Below are positions 5,595 through 12,883 of a stretch of DNA of 64,000 bases, one piece after another; position 1 is the stretch's first letter, and each line of letters opens with the position of its first letter. Below the pieces are notes generated by a model. The model worked only from the letters and a program-made list of their open reading frames with translations, had not been told where the DNA came from and did no database searches. The position numbers and the translations under genes were made by a program. Source of the DNA: Bacteroidales bacterium (GTDB lineage Bacteria > Bacteroidota > Bacteroidia > Bacteroidales > 4484-276); NCBI GenBank assembly GCA_035647615.1, contig DASRND010000032.1, forward strand, positions 62,001-126,000, given 5' to 3'.

Positions 5595-5653
5595 CCCTGC
5601 CCCACACAGGCCCAAAAAGCGGGGGCGAAACCCGAAAAGCCTTTAGAGTAGGG
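5595..5653 (+). ncRNA. 59-nt pseudoknot-like RNA element, copy A
   Basis: This is the first of four copies of one element, each exactly 59 nt between CCCT and AGGG. Pairing seen by eye: outer stem CCCT/AGGG; inner stem GCCCC/GGGGC; and the inner loop AGGC can pair with GCCT 3' of the stem, giving a pseudoknot. This copy has an A-C mismatch near the loop end of the inner stem. A start codon lies 4 nt downstream (5658) but opens only a 7-codon frame (MKFILFI). A second 11-codon frame starts at 5692. The downstream gene is therefore missing or decayed. Confidence 0.6.
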
Positions 5654-5785
5654 AGAAATGAAGTTCATTTTATTCATTTAAAATCAACAGTATGAAACGC
5701 ATATTCAATTTTTACGACAGTTCGTAGACAACAACCTTTAACAACAGGAAAAAGGTTTGCAGCATCCTTTCAAAAAAAAAGCTGT

Positions 5786-5844
5786 GCCTGCCCTGCACAG
5801 GTTAGAAAAGCAGGGGCGAATCCCGAAAAGCCTCATGAGTAGGG
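5786..5844 (+). ncRNA. 59-nt pseudoknot-like RNA element, copy B
   Basis: This is the most diverged copy. The inner stem is CCCTGC/GCAGGG, a C-G to T-A exchange on both sides compared with copy D, which is compensatory. The loop reads AGGT, which can still pair with GCCT through a G-T wobble. The outer stem keeps CCT/AGG. It ends 18 nt before the start codon of the 123-residue secreted protein at 5863, as expected of a cis-acting leader. Confidence 0.6.
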
Positions 5845-5862
5845 GAATTAAAATTAACTAAA

Positions 5863-6234
5863 ATGAAAAAGATGAGTTTGATTGTATTGATGGTTTTGTT
5901 AGGCAGTATTGCATTTTCACAAAACGAACCAAAATTCATTTATGCTGAAATTGTTGGAACTGCCAAGTTCATGAGCACCAAAGTAACTATTGAAGTGAGC
6001 TTTGGGCAGCAAATGAAAACATTTGCGGATAACAGATTAAAAGATCCGGCAACAGGCAAGGCAATCGTTTTCAAATCGATGATTGATGCTTTAAACTACA
6101 TGGGAAAACTCGGCTGGGAATTCGCACAGGCTTTTGTAATTACAGAATCGAATCAAAACGTTTACCATTTTTTACTAAAGAAACCGTTCAGTGATTTATC
6201 CCCAGAGGAACAAAAGGCTGCAATAGAAAATTAG
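5863..6234 (+). CDS. Small secreted protein of unknown function, 123 aa
   Basis: A signal peptide is clear (MSLIVLMVLLGSIAFSQ, cleavage near residue 20). The mature part of about 100 residues is soluble and contains VTIEVSFGQQ, a block MIDALNYMGKLGWEFAQAFV and a terminal LLKKP. This pattern, a strand followed by a helix with NYM-LGWE, resembles small DUF4177-like or conserved Bacteroidota proteins in which a protein of interest is predicted to swap strands; that match is only suggestive. It is preceded by RNA element copy B. No partner gene is obvious. Confidence 0.65.
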   Translation: MKKMSLIVLMVLLGSIAFSQNEPKFIYAEIVGTAKFMSTKVTIEVSFGQQMKTFADNRLKDPATGKAIVFKSMIDALNYMGKLGWEFAQAFVITESNQNVYHFLLKKPFSDLSPEEQKAAIEN

Positions 6235-6270
6235 CTGTGAGTCAATAACCTGCCAATTCAAGCAGGTTAA

Positions 6271-6384
6271 AGAAATATTACGTATCAATTTAGCATCGAT
6301 TTGTCCTCTTATCCCAAAGGAATTTACTACTTGAAAATAACCCATCAAGGAATGCTTAGCGTAAAGAAGCTGGTGCTTCAATAA
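6271..6384 (+). pseudogene. Orphan T9SS sorting-tail fragment
   Basis: After a stop at 6268-6270 the frame is open for 37 codons and ends at TAA 6382-6384. It contains IDLSSYPKGIYYLKI and ends VKKLVLQ, the typical last strands of a T9SS type A sorting domain (Por secretion system tail). No start codon or passenger domain precedes it, so it is the relic of a secreted protein whose body has been lost. Confidence 0.7.
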
Positions 6385-6400
6385 TCCCATCCTCATTCAG

Positions 6401-6419
6401 GCAGCGCGTAATGCGCTGC
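6401..6419. repeat. Short perfect hairpin
   Basis: GCAGCGC and GCGCTGC pair over a 5-base loop 17 bases after the T9SS fragment. There is no T-run, so it may be a relic terminator or an extragenic palindrome. The rest of 6385-6488 holds nothing I recognise. Confidence 0.4.
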
Positions 6420-6488
6420 TTGGAAATTGGGGAATTTGGTGAAATAAAAGCACTAAAGTTGCTGATGAGTTGTAATGCAAAATATCAA

Positions 6489-6547
6489 CCCTGCCCCGCA
6501 CAGGCCAACAAAGTGGGGGCGGATCCCGAAAAGCCTTTTGAGTAGGG
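6489..6547 (+). ncRNA. 59-nt pseudoknot-like RNA element, copy C
   Basis: It keeps the outer stem CCCT/AGGG, the inner stem CCCCGC with GTGGGG (one G-T wobble where copy D has G-C), and loop AGGC against GCCT. It ends 21 nt before the ATG of the 59-residue protein at 6569. Confidence 0.65.
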
Positions 6548-6568
6548 AAAATTAAAACTTTAAAATTT

Positions 6569-6748
6569 ATGGCAGCAGAAAAAATCGGTTCCGTAAAAGG
6601 CGGGAAAACGAGAAAAAGTTTTGATGTATTCTGGAATCCATCCGACCGTGCAGTTTATGTAGGATGGGGTGGGAAAGCCAACATCGGCAAGGCCGGTTCT
6701 GCCGGCGAAGCAATGCGCAAAGCCGAAGCATGGCTTTATGATAAATAA
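6569..6748 (+). CDS. Small basic protein of unknown function, 59 aa
   Basis: The frame starts at ATG 6569, right after RNA element C, and ends at TAA 6746-6748. The product is lysine- and glycine-rich, has no signal peptide, and contains the pattern FDVFWNPSDRAVYVGWGG and then KAGSAGEAMRKAEAWLYDK, which looks like two strands and a helix. The tryptophans and the regular strand-helix pattern argue for a real folded protein rather than chance. It is unlike its neighbours, which are exported. No family is recognised. Confidence 0.6.
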   Translation: MAAEKIGSVKGGKTRKSFDVFWNPSDRAVYVGWGGKANIGKAGSAGEAMRKAEAWLYDK

Positions 6749-6806
6749 AAGCAATCCAATTCACAATTTCAATCAACATTTTTATTAATTAAATCTCAAC
6801 ACGTTT

Positions 6807-7154
6807 ATGAAAAAAGTCTTTACGCTTACCACAGTTTTCGCCATCGTGGCGATGATGTTCAGTTCATGTGCCATGCACACCGGTATTGGCATGTCCAATG
6901 CTTCGCTGAGCCAAAACAACTTTAAAATTGTAAAATTTGCCAAAGGCGATGTATGTACCACCAAAATCTTCGGGCTGGGCGGTCTGGGTAAACAAGCCCT
7001 GGTGGCCGAAGCCAAGCAGGAGCTGCTGGCCAACTACCCGTTGCAGGACGGCCAGGCACTGGCCAATATGACGGTGGACTTTAAAAACAGCTTTATCTTT
7101 TTTGTGATCATAACCAAATGCACGGTTACCGCTGATGTTGTTCAGTTTGAATAA
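6807..7154 (+). CDS. DUF6567-like lipoprotein, 115 aa
   Basis: The N-terminus is a lipoprotein signal with lipobox FSSC (Cys21). The mature part has SQNNFKIVKFAKGDV, then IFGLGGLGKQALVAEAKQEL and ends in strands (FIFFVIITKCTV). This order, NF-[IV] strand, GLGG turn, KxALxxEA helix and a final hydrophobic strand, matches what I recall of the DUF6567 family, small Bacteroidota lipoproteins of unknown role. It lies in the envelope, 13 bases ahead of the barrel protein at 7168, so the two may be co-transcribed. The family name is from memory and not checked. Confidence 0.7.
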   Translation: MKKVFTLTTVFAIVAMMFSSCAMHTGIGMSNASLSQNNFKIVKFAKGDVCTTKIFGLGGLGKQALVAEAKQELLANYPLQDGQALANMTVDFKNSFIFFVIITKCTVTADVVQFE

Positions 7155-7167
7155 AAAGTCTGCGATT

Positions 7168-8025
7168 ATGAAAAACAAAATAACGCCTGCAATTTTCAAA
7201 TTTTCATTACTAATTCTGCTGCTGAGTTTCGCTTCGGCGGAGCTCAGCGCGCAGGTCACTACCGGCGACTACACCCAAATCCTGCTCAAAACCGGTTACA
7301 TAGTCAAGGGCAAGGTGACTGCCTTTTCGCCCGGCGAAAGCCTGACGCTGCAGACCATCGATGGCAGCACCATTACTTATCCAACTTCCGAAATAGAGGC
7401 TTACGGCAAAGGTGCCAAACCTAAGTCCGGCGGCAGTAGCAGTTCCAGGTCAACAGGATCGCAATTTAACACTGATAATATTCGGCTAATGGCAAATCTG
7501 GGCTTTGGTGTGACAGGAGCTACTAAAAGCGATTTGGATACCAAATCAGTTTTTAAATTTCCTTCTCTGCTGGGCGTGGGCATCAAGTACAATGTGGATA
7601 CAATGATTTCGCTTCACGCCGATCTGAACTACGAGCGCAAAGGCTATAAGATGGAGGATAGATCTTCTGATTTCAAGCGGTCGCTGAATTACCTCACGTT
7701 GCCTCTGTACATCGGTGTAAACTTCCCGTTCCAAGACCTGATCATTTTTGCGAACGCTGGACCCTATGTGGGTTTACTGCTCAAAGAAAAAATAAAAGAC
7801 GATAACTCTACGGGCTACAGTCATTATTACAGCAACCATCGCGCTTTCGACTATGGCTTTCTGCTGGGTGTCGGTATCGAAATCCCGTTCAACGACCAAA
7901 TTAGTTTTCGGGCAGGTTTGCGCTATACAAGAGGCTTTCGAAAGATAATGGACGGCTATTACTCAGATGTTAAAATGAAAAACAAAAGTTTTAATGCTGT
8001 GGGAAGTCTGGTGTACAAGCTTTAG
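7168..8025 (+). CDS. PorT-like outer-membrane beta-barrel protein, 285 aa
   Basis: A start at 7168 gives a normal signal peptide (FSLLILLLSFASAELSAQ); an upstream in-frame ATG at 7135 lies inside the preceding gene and is less likely. Residues about 30-85 form a small domain: ILLKTGYIVKGKVTAFSPGE, ITYPTSEIEAYGKG, resembling a strand-rich plug. A Ser/Gly linker follows, then a barrel from about residue 115 with alternating strands (LHADLNYERKGYKM, LTLPLYIGVNFPF, FGLLGVGIEI-type pattern, ISFRAGLRYTRGF) ending in a hydrophobic C-terminal residue pattern (VGSLVYKL). This is typical of outer membrane proteins of the OmpW/PorT group. A terminator at 8063 closes the unit. Confidence 0.8.
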   Translation: MKNKITPAIFKFSLLILLLSFASAELSAQVTTGDYTQILLKTGYIVKGKVTAFSPGESLTLQTIDGSTITYPTSEIEAYGKGAKPKSGGSSSSRSTGSQFNTDNIRLMANLGFGVTGATKSDLDTKSVFKFPSLLGVGIKYNVDTMISLHADLNYERKGYKMEDRSSDFKRSLNYLTLPLYIGVNFPFQDLIIFANAGPYVGLLLKEKIKDDNSTGYSHYYSNHRAFDYGFLLGVGIEIPFNDQISFRAGLRYTRGFRKIMDGYYSDVKMKNKSFNAVGSLVYKL

Positions 8026-8062
8026 CTTAAAAAAAGATTTAACTATGATTTTTAGTAGTTAC

Positions 8063-8094
8063 AAAAAAGCCACCCTTACGCGGATGGCTTTTTT
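8063..8094. terminator. Bidirectional Rho-independent terminator
   Basis: A-run, GCCACCC, 5-base loop, GGATGGC, T-run. It is the first of four very similar terminators (8063, 12957, 16563, 16859), each followed at once by the 3' end of the threonine dehydrogenase gene. Confidence 0.85.
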
Positions 8095-8115
8095 GTTAGT
8101 AGCTGCTTTGAGATT

Positions 8116-8139
8116 TTAGATCAGACCCTTTTCAGATTT
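8116..8139 (-). pseudogene. Relic of the 3' end of the threonine dehydrogenase gene
   Basis: On the - strand this reads KSEKGLI and a stop, against KHEKGLI and a stop in the intact gene at 16957. The bases between terminator and stop (8096-8115) also align with 12990-13010. It is short, but the identical placement behind a matching terminator makes chance unlikely. Confidence 0.6.
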
Positions 8140-8149
8140 CGAAAGCCAT

Positions 8150-8530
8150 ACAGATAATTTTGAGCTACATCCCCTCCCCACTATTTTGAATCGAAATAAA
8201 TTATGGTTTTAAAAATCTGGCGCTTATTCGAGGAACCCTGACGCTTGCTCAAGAAGCCCCATCGTTTATTCAAGATTTAGGTAAATGGATGTTTCTGCAG
8301 ACAAAAATATTTTTGGAGATGTCCCAACACCTTTCTACATTTGGCGAAAATTTATTAAGCAAAACAAAAGCAATGAGATTAACAAAAATAACCGAGCGCG
8401 TTGCATCCCCAAATTTCGTGGTGCTCTCCCCAAATTTGGAGATAGAAAAATGGCCGGTTCTGGGGAATTGTGTGGTGCAAAGGGTTCGGGTAGTGGTGAA
8501 ATGAATAACTTAGTGAATACGGAAACAATA
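8150..8530. repeat. Diverged long repeat, copy 1 (second copy at 11770-12120)
   Basis: Blocks shared in the same order with 11770-12120 include TTTTGAATCGAAATAAA, the GCTTATTC/GTTTATTCAA blocks, CAAATTTGG-GATAGAAAAA and GGCACAAAGG-like stretches. In both copies a gene for an exported protein follows. The open frame through this copy looks non-coding (no family, starts in the repeat). The 8026-8542 gap otherwise holds only the terminator and the dehydrogenase relic. Confidence 0.65.
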
Positions 8531-8542
8531 ACAACTATTTTT

Positions 8543-11407
8543 ATGAAACTTTTAATTCTGACTTTCGCCTTCGTATTGGCATTTGTGGAAGTATCCGCTC
8601 AAAACTATAAGAAAGGTTTTAAAGAGCTGGAGGAGAATAATTTCGATGTTGCGGCAGCTCATTTCAATAAAATTATTGCAGAAAATGAAAACGACGCAGT
8701 AGCAAATTATGCATTAGGCGTAATTTATTCTGACAGCAGATATCGCGATTTCGATTTACTAACCGCCTTTGAGTTCCTCAATTTATCTGACAATGCCAAA
8801 GTTTTCATTCCGCAGAAAACAATGGCAAAGTATGATGGCTATTTCACGCTCGACAAACTTACTTCCGTTTACACTAAGGTCGACACAGAATTGTACAAAA
8901 AGGTCGTGCAAAATTTGCAGGATTCCGTGCTGATGAGTGGCTATTTGAGCAAATGTAAGGAATCCACATTCTATGATCAGGTGGTTGTAAGTTATGATGA
9001 TTACAATTTTGCAAAAGTTGAAAACGCTTTGTCAGTTGACGGCTTAAAAAGTTTCATTCTGAAATATCCGGAGTCCGGTCATCTCGCTGACGCCAATCAA
9101 CTTTTAAGTGAGCTTGAGCTGTTGGGAAAAATCCAGGAAAAGGGCAACTTGGACGACATACACAAATATTACGACGATTTCCCCAAAGGAAGATTTGCAC
9201 AAGTTGTCGATTCGATAAATGTTGAAGTTAGCTGGGTGGAGGCCACAAAAGCTCCTACTATCGATCTCCTGCAAAAATATTTAGATGAATTTGGCAGCAG
9301 CAAATACACAGATGAGGCAACTGCAAAAATCAAGGAGTTGGAAAAGCAAATGATTACAAATGATATCACCCAATATTTGAGGAACAATCAGGTGCTTAAT
9401 AAATTTAGCTTTAATCCCGAAGGGGAATTGATGCTGCTTTACCAAAATGTGGTTTATAAAAAATGTAACCTTGAGGGTGACTGCTGGAGCAAGGAATATG
9501 GAGATTTTAAAACCAATGCCCTTGCTTTTTCCCTGGCCAGAAATCATGCGATTTACAGAGTGGAAGATGAAAAATCTGTCGGAAAATCATTGGATGGAGG
9601 AAACAATTGGATATCTATAAACAATGGCCTGCCTGATAAAATAGCGATTAAATCAATATTCGTTAACCCTGAAAACGATGAGGTATTTATAACTACCGAC
9701 CGGGGACTTTACCGAACAAAAGACGGTGGATTCTATTGGGATATGTTTTATGAAGGACGCGTCAAACAGATGATAACGTTTCCGGAGTATAAGAACCTCA
9801 TATTCCTTCTTGTCGACAATACCATTCTATATTTAGCGAAGGATGGCGTTTCATGGATAAACATTCAGATAGTTGAAAATCTAAGAAAGAGCCATCCCGG
9901 GACGGGTTTATTGGATATTAAAAACATTTTTTATTTGCCATCTTCAAAGGAGACTAAATTGTTGGCTGCAACAAATCATGGCCTATTCAGCAGCCCTTTC
10001 GGTGATTTTGATTCATGGGAGAAAATCAGCGACAATTTTTTCAACGACAAAATAATTTCCTCTATGTATGCGAATGATGAGGAAATTATCGTTGCCACAT
10101 CTTCTTTGAAGGTGGGCGTAGCAATGAAAAATGAAATTTATAAATCACGCCTGAATCCTCTCTCCTTACAGAAAATAGATGTCGATCTGTCGGCATTTTC
10201 TAAAATAACAGGAATAACAAAGTCCTACGATTCCAAAGGATATTTTATCGCATCCGAATCGCGCATTGGATACCTATCCGACGAAGGACTTATCGGCTTA
10301 AACTATGGGGTTTTGCCTCATTCCGATATCGATGCTTTTACAGCTACTGTTGGGGATGGAAAGATTTATTTTGCCATGGTTAACAATAACCAGGATATTG
10401 ATACGGAAAGGTTTGGCGTATGGAAATCGGCCGATCTGGTGACCTGGGAGATGGTTTACACCGCCGATATCCCTTATGAAAACGAAACCGCTAACATTTA
10501 TCTGTCGCCACACGACACCGATGAGATTTGGATAGTATATGATGATAATCGTGGGCACGACAAATACACGCTAAGCTACAATGGAGGCAGCACATGGCAG
10601 GAGCTACGCGACTTTCCTGACAATGCCTATGAAATTAAAAACCCGCAATTTCATCCATTTCGAAAAGATGTGGTTTATTTTCAATCTAAAATAAGTAACA
10701 GTAAGCTCATCAGATATGACAAAAGCACCAGCTCAGCCACTGAATTGCGGAAAACTTATGGGTTTTTAATCTCTCAAAATGACGATCAAAAAATATTTAA
10801 TATCAATGTCGATAATGAGCGTGGTTTAATTTTGGAAGTAAGCTATGACGGTGGATGGACCTTTGAGCCATCGGATTCTGATATAAAAGACTTTTTGCCA
10901 GGCGTTTCTTTTGACGACATTCTTAACAAGAGTTCCGTAATAATTAGTCCCCAAATATTTAAAGATGATTGTATCGTTCTAATGGTCATTGACGGCCAGT
11001 ACGACAATGCCGGAATTAACTATCTTTTAAAATCCATGGATAATGGGAATACATGGGAAACCTTAAAAACATTAGGGAATGCTGCACTTAAGTTCGTTTA
11101 TGTTGAGCCGAAAAATATCAATGACATTTTAGTCGGAGCAGAATTTGACCATACTTTCGTCTTATCCGACGGCACCACCAACCCACCGGGCTATTACATT
11201 TCATATCCCACCATAAGCGGCACCTGGAGGGAACTTCTTCTGCCGGAAAAACTGAGTAATCCTTCCGGGGGTTTTAGAACACATAAGGGTCAGGAAGCCA
11301 CGCTTTATCTTTACGGAGAAAAAGGTCTGTTTTGCTCTCAGGATGAAATAAACTGGGAGAAAATTGGCGGGATAAAAAATCAGGATAAGAAGAAAATTTT
11401 GAATTAA
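8543..11407 (+). CDS. Secreted TPR and Asp-box beta-propeller protein, 954 aa
   Basis: I place the start at 8543 because it gives a signal peptide (LLILTFAFVLAFVEVSAQ); a longer frame from 8285 runs through repeat DNA. Residues about 20-75 look like a tetratricopeptide pair (KGFKELEENNFDVAAAHFNK, NYALGVIYSD). From about residue 310 there are Asp-box/BNR-type turns: SLDGGNNW, TKDGGFYW, SYNGGSTW, SYDGGWTF, SMDNGNTW, as in VPS10/YCF48-like propellers. Such propellers bind glycans or proteins; no glycosidase catalytic residues are evident. No T9SS tail is seen, so it is likely periplasmic. It stands alone between two repeats. Confidence 0.75.
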   Translation: MKLLILTFAFVLAFVEVSAQNYKKGFKELEENNFDVAAAHFNKIIAENENDAVANYALGVIYSDSRYRDFDLLTAFEFLNLSDNAKVFIPQKTMAKYDGYFTLDKLTSVYTKVDTELYKKVVQNLQDSVLMSGYLSKCKESTFYDQVVVSYDDYNFAKVENALSVDGLKSFILKYPESGHLADANQLLSELELLGKIQEKGNLDDIHKYYDDFPKGRFAQVVDSINVEVSWVEATKAPTIDLLQKYLDEFGSSKYTDEATAKIKELEKQMITNDITQYLRNNQVLNKFSFNPEGELMLLYQNVVYKKCNLEGDCWSKEYGDFKTNALAFSLARNHAIYRVEDEKSVGKSLDGGNNWISINNGLPDKIAIKSIFVNPENDEVFITTDRGLYRTKDGGFYWDMFYEGRVKQMITFPEYKNLIFLLVDNTILYLAKDGVSWINIQIVENLRKSHPGTGLLDIKNIFYLPSSKETKLLAATNHGLFSSPFGDFDSWEKISDNFFNDKIISSMYANDEEIIVATSSLKVGVAMKNEIYKSRLNPLSLQKIDVDLSAFSKITGITKSYDSKGYFIASESRIGYLSDEGLIGLNYGVLPHSDIDAFTATVGDGKIYFAMVNNNQDIDTERFGVWKSADLVTWEMVYTADIPYENETANIYLSPHDTDEIWIVYDDNRGHDKYTLSYNGGSTWQELRDFPDNAYEIKNPQFHPFRKDVVYFQSKISNSKLIRYDKSTSSATELRKTYGFLISQNDDQKIFNINVDNERGLILEVSYDGGWTFEPSDSDIKDFLPGVSFDDILNKSSVIISPQIFKDDCIVLMVIDGQYDNAGINYLLKSMDNGNTWETLKTLGNAALKFVYVEPKNINDILVGAEFDHTFVLSDGTTNPPGYYISYPTISGTWRELLLPEKLSNPSGGFRTHKGQEATLYLYGEKGLFCSQDEINWEKIGGIKNQDKKKILN

Positions 11408-11465
11408 TAAACGGAAGCTGAGGCAAGTCATAAACTCTCTGCGTAACAACAATCCGTAAAGAAAA

Positions 11466-11548
11466 AATCACCCGGTGAATCCTGCCAGGAAAATGCTACT
11501 AAGCCATGAAAGCAGAAGTAGCCGTTGGGAAATATTCACCGGGTGATT
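11466..11548. repeat. 15-bp perfect inverted repeat with 53-base spacer
   Basis: AATCACCCGGTGAAT (11466-11480) is the exact reverse complement of ATTCACCGGGTGATT (11534-11548). The GGTGAATCCTGC string in the left arm recurs inside another inverted repeat at 16607, so this is probably a dispersed palindromic family. Confidence 0.7.
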
Positions 11549-11769
11549 CGTCCCACAGAAAATAATGTATAACAGCATTGCTGTCGATCAGATACTTTTG
11601 TTCTATCCGCTGCGGCTGTTTTTGATGTGAGGTAATGATGATTTGGTATTCCGTTCCAGCACCTAAGCAATTACAAAAAACTCCTACAAAGTCATCCTAA
11701 TTTAAAAATCAGGCCTAATTTCCAAACCCTATTTGCGACTGAGCATTTAATAATTGCCGTCACACAGGT

Positions 11770-12120
11770 GGTTTTTGAGCACCATCTTTTCCCCACTTTT
11801 TTGAATCGAAATAAACTACGATTTTAACATTTTTATGTTTATTCAAAACGTCCTAACGCTCGATCAATTAGCCAAATAGCTTATTCAAAATCACAAAACA
11901 TGATATCTCTGCGTATGAAATAGACGTTTGTAAATCTCCTTGCGGTTTCTTAAATTTCTCAAAAACCCTGAACAAAACATAGCGCAATGGCATTAATCAA
12001 CATGATAAAACGATATGTATTACCAAATCTCGTGATACTGACCCTCAAATTTGGGGATAGAAAAAATTGCTGAATTTGTGGTTTTATGGCACAAAGGTTT
12101 GGTGTATGAAAATCGGATAA
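11770..12120. repeat. Diverged long repeat, copy 2 (first copy at 8150-8530)
   Basis: It aligns in order with the stretch ahead of the beta-propeller gene, with many substitutions and small gaps. Here it leads straight into RNA element D and the barrel gene. Copy 1 lacks the RNA element. Confidence 0.65.
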
Positions 12121-12134
12121 AATAATTTTGACAA

Positions 12135-12193
12135 CCCTGCCCCGCACAGGCCAAAAAAGCGGGGGCGGAACCTGAAAAGCCTTTAGAGTAGGG
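12135..12193 (+). ncRNA. 59-nt pseudoknot-like RNA element, copy D
   Basis: This copy shows the consensus most clearly: outer stem CCCT/AGGG, inner stem GCCCCGC/GCGGGG, loop AGGC pairing with GCCT. The first ATG of the next gene is 3 nt after the element (12197), and a better signal-peptide start is 18 nt later (12215). Confidence 0.65.
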
Positions 12194-12214: not shown

Positions 12215-12883
12215 ATGAAAAAGGTAATCACACTATTAGTTATGCTTTTCGTGGTAAGTCTTGCCACAGAAGTAGTTGCGCAAACAATTCGTGCAAGAGC
12301 AGGTTTTAATTTGTCAAAAATGCTGATGAAAGATGATGATAAAACATTAAGCAGCGAGGATGAGTACAAAATGCTCCCTGGATTTCATCTTGGTGCAACA
12401 GCCGAAATTCCCTTTAGCGATATGTTTTCGTTTGAAACCGGCTTGCTTTTAAGTACCAAAGGGTACAAGTACAAAGATGAAGGAAGTCTTTATGAGACTG
12501 AGGGAAAAGTAACTTTGTATTATTTAGAAATACCTATAACCGGAAAAGCCACGTTCGATGTTGGTGGTGTGAAAGTTTATGGTGTTTTTGGCCCTTATCT
12601 GGGCTTTGGTTTGACTGGAAAGTACAAAAATGAATTTACCATTGCTGGTATTACAGAGAAGAGTGATGGCGATATTGAGTGGGGTACAGATGCTGAAAAG
12701 GATGACTATAAGCGCCTGGATTTTGGTTTAACTGTAGGTGCCGGAGTGGAAATCGACGCTTTCCAGATTGGCATAAACTACGGGCTGGGGCTTGCAAACT
12801 TGTCGCCTAACAGCGATAATGGTTATAGACAAAAGAATCGTGTTTTGGGAATTACAATTGGCTATAAAATATTTGCACTATAA
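12215..12883 (+). CDS. PorT-like outer-membrane beta-barrel protein, 222 aa
   Basis: The signal peptide (VITLLVMLFVVSLATEVVAQ) favours the start at 12215, though an in-frame ATG at 12197 directly after RNA element D would add six residues. The mature part opens with IRARAGFNLSKML and continues with barrel strands LGATAEIPFSDMFSFETGLL, LYYLEIPITGKATF, VYGVFGPYLGFGL, LGITIGYKIFAL, matching the PorT / outer membrane beta-barrel family of about 200-230 residues. Its role may be in the envelope or T9SS; a direct PorT function cannot be claimed. A strong terminator follows at 12957. Confidence 0.8.
   Translation: MKKVITLLVMLFVVSLATEVVAQTIRARAGFNLSKMLMKDDDKTLSSEDEYKMLPGFHLGATAEIPFSDMFSFETGLLLSTKGYKYKDEGSLYETEGKVTLYYLEIPITGKATFDVGGVKVYGVFGPYLGFGLTGKYKNEFTIAGITEKSDGDIEWGTDAEKDDYKRLDFGLTVGAGVEIDAFQIGINYGLGLANLSPNSDNGYRQKNRVLGITIGYKIFAL

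Follow-up and report, generated by a model that had tools for sequence, protein, structure and literature searches.

The window, by which we mean the whole 64-kb stretch of DNA analysed here, carries four plus-strand copies of a 59-nt element, designated A (5595-5653), B (5786-5844), C (6489-6547), and D (12135-12193), as the original prediction had stated; its description of the ends as CCCT and AGGG fails for copy B, whose first bases are GCCT. No fifth copy was detected within the 64-kb window at E ≤ 10. In pairwise comparisons the copies are 80 to 93% identical, whereas the 40 nt on either side reach only 25 to 55%; thus, the element alone is conserved, and not a larger duplication.

Each copy had been placed ahead of a start codon, which holds for copies B and C. 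Copy B lies 18 nt before the ATG of a plus-strand gene (5863..6234) for a 123-residue protein with a signal-peptide-like start and no Pfam family, and copy C lies 21 nt before the ATG of a plus-strand gene (6569..6748) for a small cytosolic protein of ~59 residues, likewise with no Pfam family, followed by a second plus-strand gene (6807..7154) for a lipoprotein-like DUF6567 protein. For copy D, the ATG 3 nt away gives way to a better one at 12215, whose distance of 21 nt is the usual one in the family; this ATG opens with the signal-peptide start MKKVITLL and is the most likely start of a plus-strand gene for an outer-membrane beta-barrel (PF13568; 12215..12883). Homologues of the DUF6567 gene (L064, L142, and L126) and of the beta-barrel gene (L090, L045, and L036) lie directly behind an element at other loci. 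The claim does not extend to copy A: the nearby ATG at 5658 opens only a 7-codon ORF, and no recognisable gene lies between it and copy B. The stretch between copies A and B (5654-5785) contains only 7- and 11-codon ORFs; perhaps a gene has been lost here or is very small, or copy A is an orphan leader. A second copy of the small copy C gene (58% identity over 41 residues) starts near position 98321 of contig C7 of the same genome; a AAAGGAGAAGT stretch, and no element, directly precedes its ATG.

Upstream of copy D, a likely promoter of the Bacteroidota type is predicted from sequence on the plus strand (12098..12130), with TTTG at −37 from the element, a spacing of 21 nt, and TAATTTTG at −12, following the general Bacteroidota consensus; transcription from it would begin close to the first base of the element. 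A fixed promoter position before the element was considered and rejected, as TANNTTTG sites are scattered, with a clean match for copy D only. A motif resembling GGCTGACCACC..GTGACAA precedes the element by 15 to 35 nt at seven unrelated loci and may mark a sub-regulon, as its promoter or activator site.

Fold of the element

The fold proposed originally combined an outer CCCT/AGGG helix, an inner GCCCC/GGGGC stem, and a pairing of AGGC with GCCT. Over 18 sequences, the observed values for this fold were reached by 112 to 289 of 500 shuffles, and the CCCT/AGGG and AGGC/GCCT helices receive no covariation support; the inner stem survives as a stem, but only in a shifted register. The two substitutions cited in its favor, C-G to T-A in copy B (pair 9-27) and a G-T wobble in copy C (pair 10-26), are both real; in copy A, however, positions 10 and 26 form an A-C mismatch. 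Within the four copies alone, covariation does not rise above shuffles, nor does single-sequence folding of the copies perform better than shuffles, as expected for pseudoknots.

Comparison with relatives indicates that each copy very probably folds as two tandem pseudoknots. The 5′ pseudoknot is of the H-type, with S1 CCTG/CAGG, S2 CCCNC/GNGGG, a 1-nt L1, and an A-rich L3. The 3′ core consists of a GGC/GCC hairpin (P3) and of PK2, in which CCY of the P3 loop pairs with RGG at the end of the near-invariant tail GAGTARG. This pairing of the terminal GGG with the loop CCC or CCU explains why AGGG had been taken for a stem arm. In copy A (5595..5653), S1 comprises 4 bp (5596-5599/5607-5610), S2 (5601-5605/5619-5623) contains the A-C mismatch, P3 is formed by 5624-5626/5639-5641, and PK2 joins 5631-5633 (CCC) to 5651-5653 (GGG), the near-invariant tail GAGTAGG occupying 5646-5652. 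Copy B (5786..5844) has a 5-bp S1 with a G-U closing pair (5786-5790/5798-5802), an S2 with the C-G to U-A change (5792-5796/5810-5814), P3 at 5815-5817/5830-5832, and PK2 at 5822-5824/5842-5844. The corresponding helices of copy C (6489..6547) are S1 6490-6493/6501-6504, S2 6495-6499/6513-6517 with its G-U pair, P3 6518-6520/6533-6535, and PK2 6525-6527/6545-6547, and those of copy D (12135..12193) are S1 12136-12139/12147-12150, S2 12141-12145/12159-12163, P3 12164-12166/12179-12181, and PK2 12171-12173 (CCU)/12191-12193 (GGG).

In the 18 sequences, part of which had been preselected by a pseudoknot finder, S1 (1-5/13-17), S2 (7-11/25-29), and P3 (30-32/45-47) show two-sided changes in 8 of 13 pairs, and none of 500 shuffles reached their covariation score. 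Because of this preselection, a second covariance model, R2, was built from S2 and P3 only and further genomes were searched, yielding 119 distinct hits, nearly all of them new (a few from two genomes, G023 and G038, recur). In these hits P3 covaries, and two-sided changes appear in all five pairs of S2 and in all five pairs of S1, which is not part of R2; the H-type pseudoknot is found in 51 of 116 hits at a level matched by at most 1 of 50 shuffles. When PK2 is included, compensatory changes affect 15 of 16 pairs, with 224 double-change cells vs. 75 in shuffles; pair counts take sequences as independent, and relatedness inflates significance against shuffles, whereas slid controls of the 16-pair fold preserve relatedness and score far lower.

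PK2 was found by asking for the pairing partner of the tail. In 294 hits, the base that precedes GAAAA combines with the R of GAGTARG as C-G in 211 cases, U-G in 54, U-A in 20, and C-A in 2 (Fisher p = 3e-11, or p = 2e-8 when one hit per locus is taken). At the following pair, 282 of the 294 have C-G and double changes are rare, and the third is paired in 153 hits vs. 133 expected. The unpaired core bases GAAAA and GAGTA are near-invariant.

Most relatives also bear a 5′ GTGG/CCAC hairpin (P0), and their usual layout is P0 (GTGGAG-N-CC-AG..CCAC), an A-rich linker, ACGGGGCG, a loop, CYGAAAAGCC, four bases, and GAGTAGG; a second class resembles the window copies in having a hairpin between linker and core. 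In P0-bearing relatives, the loop YY and the linker GR form C-G in 65 cases, U-G in 12, U-A in 10, and C-A in none (p = 1.6e-7). The S1/S2 pseudoknot, at the 1-in-20 level, is present in 39% of hits without an adjacent P0 vs. 3% of those with one, identifying the S1/S2 domain as an optional module. The family thus comprises two tandem pseudoknots, of which the 5′ one draws on P0 in some members and on S1/S2 in others, the window copies among them. At eight loci, AHSA1/SRPBCC genes lie behind a P0 subtype in which the loop is shorter (GTGGAGCAGCAACCAC) and the linker, ACGGGCG, has one G fewer.

Relationship to the DUF805 RNAs

The original prediction recognized no named family with this consensus; comparison with Rfam, which it had proposed, leads to one, since the 3′ half of each copy matches DUF805b (RF02914), which shares clan CL00115 with DUF805 (RF03081). 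At Rfam gathering thresholds the window yields only a tRNA. In E-value mode, DUF805b matches copy A at 35.4 bits (E = 4.6e-8), copy D at 34.2 bits (E = 9.7e-8), copy C at 30.0 bits (E = 3.3e-6), and copy B at 24.2 bits (E = 3e-4), so that all four fall just under the gathering cut-off of 35.6 bits, which is a curation line and not a biological feature. The alignments cover the 35-nt model end to end, in copies A, B, and C with the 3′ 33 nt, and the copies contain its P3 hairpin, conserved 12-nt loop, GAAAAGCC, and GAGTAGG tail; apart from copy A, the window copies also share its position just 5′ of protein-coding genes. The scores against DUF805 are lower (32.0, 30.0, 29.6, and 26.2 bits vs. 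a cut-off of 51.1), and the P0 hairpin GTGG/CCAC with which that model opens is absent 5′ of all four copies, although core and placement agree.

Two relatives bridge the gap between the window copies and the family: L047 and L120 exceed the DUF805b and DUF805 cut-offs and carry the S1/S2 pseudoknot. The genome itself holds at least two further relatives besides the window copies, one on contig C11 above the DUF805b cut-off (44.9 bits) and one on contig C33 with the DUF805 layout including P0 (41 bits), ahead of a lipoprotein-like gene. We therefore regard the window copies as a divergent form of the orphan clan DUF805/DUF805b, and hold this identity and the fold, taken by themselves, with high confidence. 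As printed by cmscan, the DUF805b model is a single hairpin with neither the S1/S2 pseudoknot nor the loop-tail pairing; new relative to the Rfam models in that form are the S1/S2 pseudoknot module, PK2, and the P0 loop-linker pairing. DUF805 RNAs were reportedly introduced by Weinberg and colleagues in 2017, and to our knowledge are an orphan family with no known function; our literature search did not find DUF805 as the name of an RNA.

Distribution and genomic placement

The search of other genomes that had been suggested, using a covariance model of the four copies (R1), recovered relatives in 12 of 59 genomes, one of them that of the window. Within the order, model R2 matched 152 of 393 genomes, and within the class 135 of 395, with up to 14 copies per genome, often clustered; the E-values of both models are rough, owing to short calibration. 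Across the phylum, RF03081 matched 69 of 395 genomes. A collection covering 84,980 species contains at least 119 stretches with the pattern GAAAAGCCNNANGAGTAGG, and among the matches listed nearly all are from Bacteroidota, together with Ignavibacteria and three Pseudomonas. About nine IMG/VR contigs carry the element, and searches of plasmid and phage records gave no match.

An ORF with an ATG start and at least 60 codons begins 12 to 30 nt downstream of 240 of 281 relatives, vs. 6.7% of random positions at the same loci. The median spacing to the ATG is 21 nt (quartiles 19 to 23), with a small bias from choosing, where several ATGs occur, the one nearest 20 nt; A makes up 55% of the spacer and G 6%. 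Translation starts in Bacteroidota largely without Shine-Dalgarno sequences, and in Flavobacterium johnsoniae the −20 to +20 region is unstructured and an upstream A-rich motif at −12/−13 accompanies efficient initiation (PMC6847099). With its spacing of ~21 nt, the element thus ends where the unstructured initiation region begins. Short gaps to the upstream gene were also considered as proof of operon-internal translational control, and this argument was dropped, since no more than 42 of 263 elements have a same-strand stop within 60 nt and promoters, too, can overlap an upstream gene.

The genes behind the element share no evident pathway. Among 117 downstream proteins we counted AHSA1 (9), TM2 (6), two kinds of barrel (5 and 4), PixA (4), SCO4226 (4), rhodopsin (3), DUF805 (3), DUF6567 (3), and many singletons; further types are SRPBCC, PixA/AidA inclusion-body, DUF1842, and cystatin-like proteins. 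By a simple hydrophobicity rule, 46% of the downstream genes have signal-peptide-like starts, compared with 23% of background ORFs. The element is kept with the same gene family across orders (SCO4226-like and TM2 genes) and accompanies a cystatin-like gene in both Flavobacterium and Pseudomonas, which belong to different phyla.

Several loci merit separate description. A DUF805 element with P0 precedes the small cystatin-like gene at three Pseudomonas loci (L042, L079, and L084) and on six IMG/VR contigs (L147, L151, L154, L156, L159, and L161), with 61.9 bits at L042 and 64.6 bits at L161, above the DUF805 cut-off; a GGAGA Shine-Dalgarno-like stretch between element and ATG occurs at Pseudomonas-type loci only. 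The same gene follows the element in Flavobacterium, Tenacibaculum, and other Bacteroidota, and leader and gene were apparently transferred between phyla as a unit. Microbial rhodopsin genes lie directly behind a DUF805 element at three loci, one of which (L105) has two such genes. At six loci, arrays of unrelated small genes (PixA/AidA-like, DUF1842-like, lectin-like, cystatin-like, and phospholipase-like) run in the same orientation, each gene with its own element.

Candidate modes of action

The element is most likely a cis-regulatory 5′ leader of the orphan-riboswitch type that acts at translation initiation. A conserved, structured, cis-acting RNA ahead of start codons finds strong support in ~300 relatives, and the original suggestion of a riboswitch or translational regulator is still the best, if provisional, reading. 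That the element regulates in cis we consider probable, with fairly high confidence, while for control at the level of translation by a sensed signal we see about an even chance. As in riboswitches, a conserved structured 5′ leader displays near-invariant unpaired bases, and these core bases (GAAAA and GAGTA) may form a signal-binding site, as such bases do in small pseudoknot riboswitches. The loop-tail pairing would then open or close. It ends ~21 nt short of the AUG, just where the unstructured initiation region begins, and its opening or closing could alter access of the 30S subunit, so that every gene with its own copy would be tuned at translation initiation. In nested folding, the start region was neither masked nor protected relative to shuffled elements, which disfavors simple sequestration of the start codon and favors a standby-site or tail-release mechanism. 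The closest analogy, and an analogy only, is the preQ1-I riboswitch, in which a tail near the start codon pairs back with the loop of a short upstream hairpin; the window element differs in its unrelated consensus, in the absence of queuosine genes and of a known ligand, and in the position of the tail, which lies ~21 nt from the AUG and not, as in preQ1-I, at the Shine-Dalgarno sequence.

The lack of a real gene after copy A speaks against a regulatory leader. The apparent absence of a shared downstream pathway is unusual for a metabolite riboswitch, and unrelated genes behind up to 14 copies per genome look more like a regulon than like feedback on a single pathway. Together with the twofold excess of signal-peptide-like starts, this pattern would suit an operator on which an RNA-binding protein docks, coordinating envelope and effector-like genes as a post-transcriptional regulon, with no small-molecule ligand. 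We consider such an operator unlikely, if credible: its partner is only putative, and the element also keeps its sequence at a handful of loci in Pseudomonas, which would then need to possess that protein or to have acquired it as well. We give still less credence to a constitutive booster that senses nothing, in which the compact fold would shield the mRNA 5′ end or serve as a 30S standby platform; the fixed spacing and open A-rich spacer suit a ribosome-loading platform, and inclusion-body proteins, porins, and the like are plausibly highly expressed, but near-invariant unpaired GAAAA and GAGTA exceed what a stabilizing fold needs. Attenuation is the mode of action of many regulatory leaders, and transcription of copy D probably begins right at the element, but control of termination within the leader is very improbable given the ~21-nt A-rich spacer to the ATG, which offers no space for a terminator hairpin and U-run. 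Equally hard to sustain is the earlier suggestion of a mobile cis element, a REP-like or attC-like repeat or recombination site spread with gene cassettes: clusters of unrelated genes with one co-oriented copy each, the patchy occurrence, and the nine IMG/VR contigs would fit, but the spacing to the ATG is fixed at 19 to 23 nt in a single orientation relative to the gene, compensatory changes maintain the RNA fold in one orientation, the same gene keeps the element across orders, and the flanks of the window copies lack similarity.

We thus return to the cis-regulatory leader. The complete statement, that the copies are 5′-leader regulatory RNAs of two tandem pseudoknots tuning each gene at translation initiation, strikes us as just about as probable as its negation. 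A broader proposal, more tentative and on balance doubtful, is that the DUF805 clan may constitute a riboswitch class yet to be recognized, whose double-pseudoknot aptamer senses one common signal and controls genes for exported proteins, inclusion-body proteins, and rhodopsins throughout Bacteroidota and, through transfer, in Pseudomonas, with the window copies as a subtype in which the S1/S2 pseudoknot replaces the P0 domain. The pseudoknotted fold, fixed distance to the start, wide distribution, and gene list can direct the design of constructs for probing and reporters, including in the tractable Flavobacterium. A widespread structured leader bordering the initiation region is relevant to translational control in the largely Shine-Dalgarno-free Bacteroidota.
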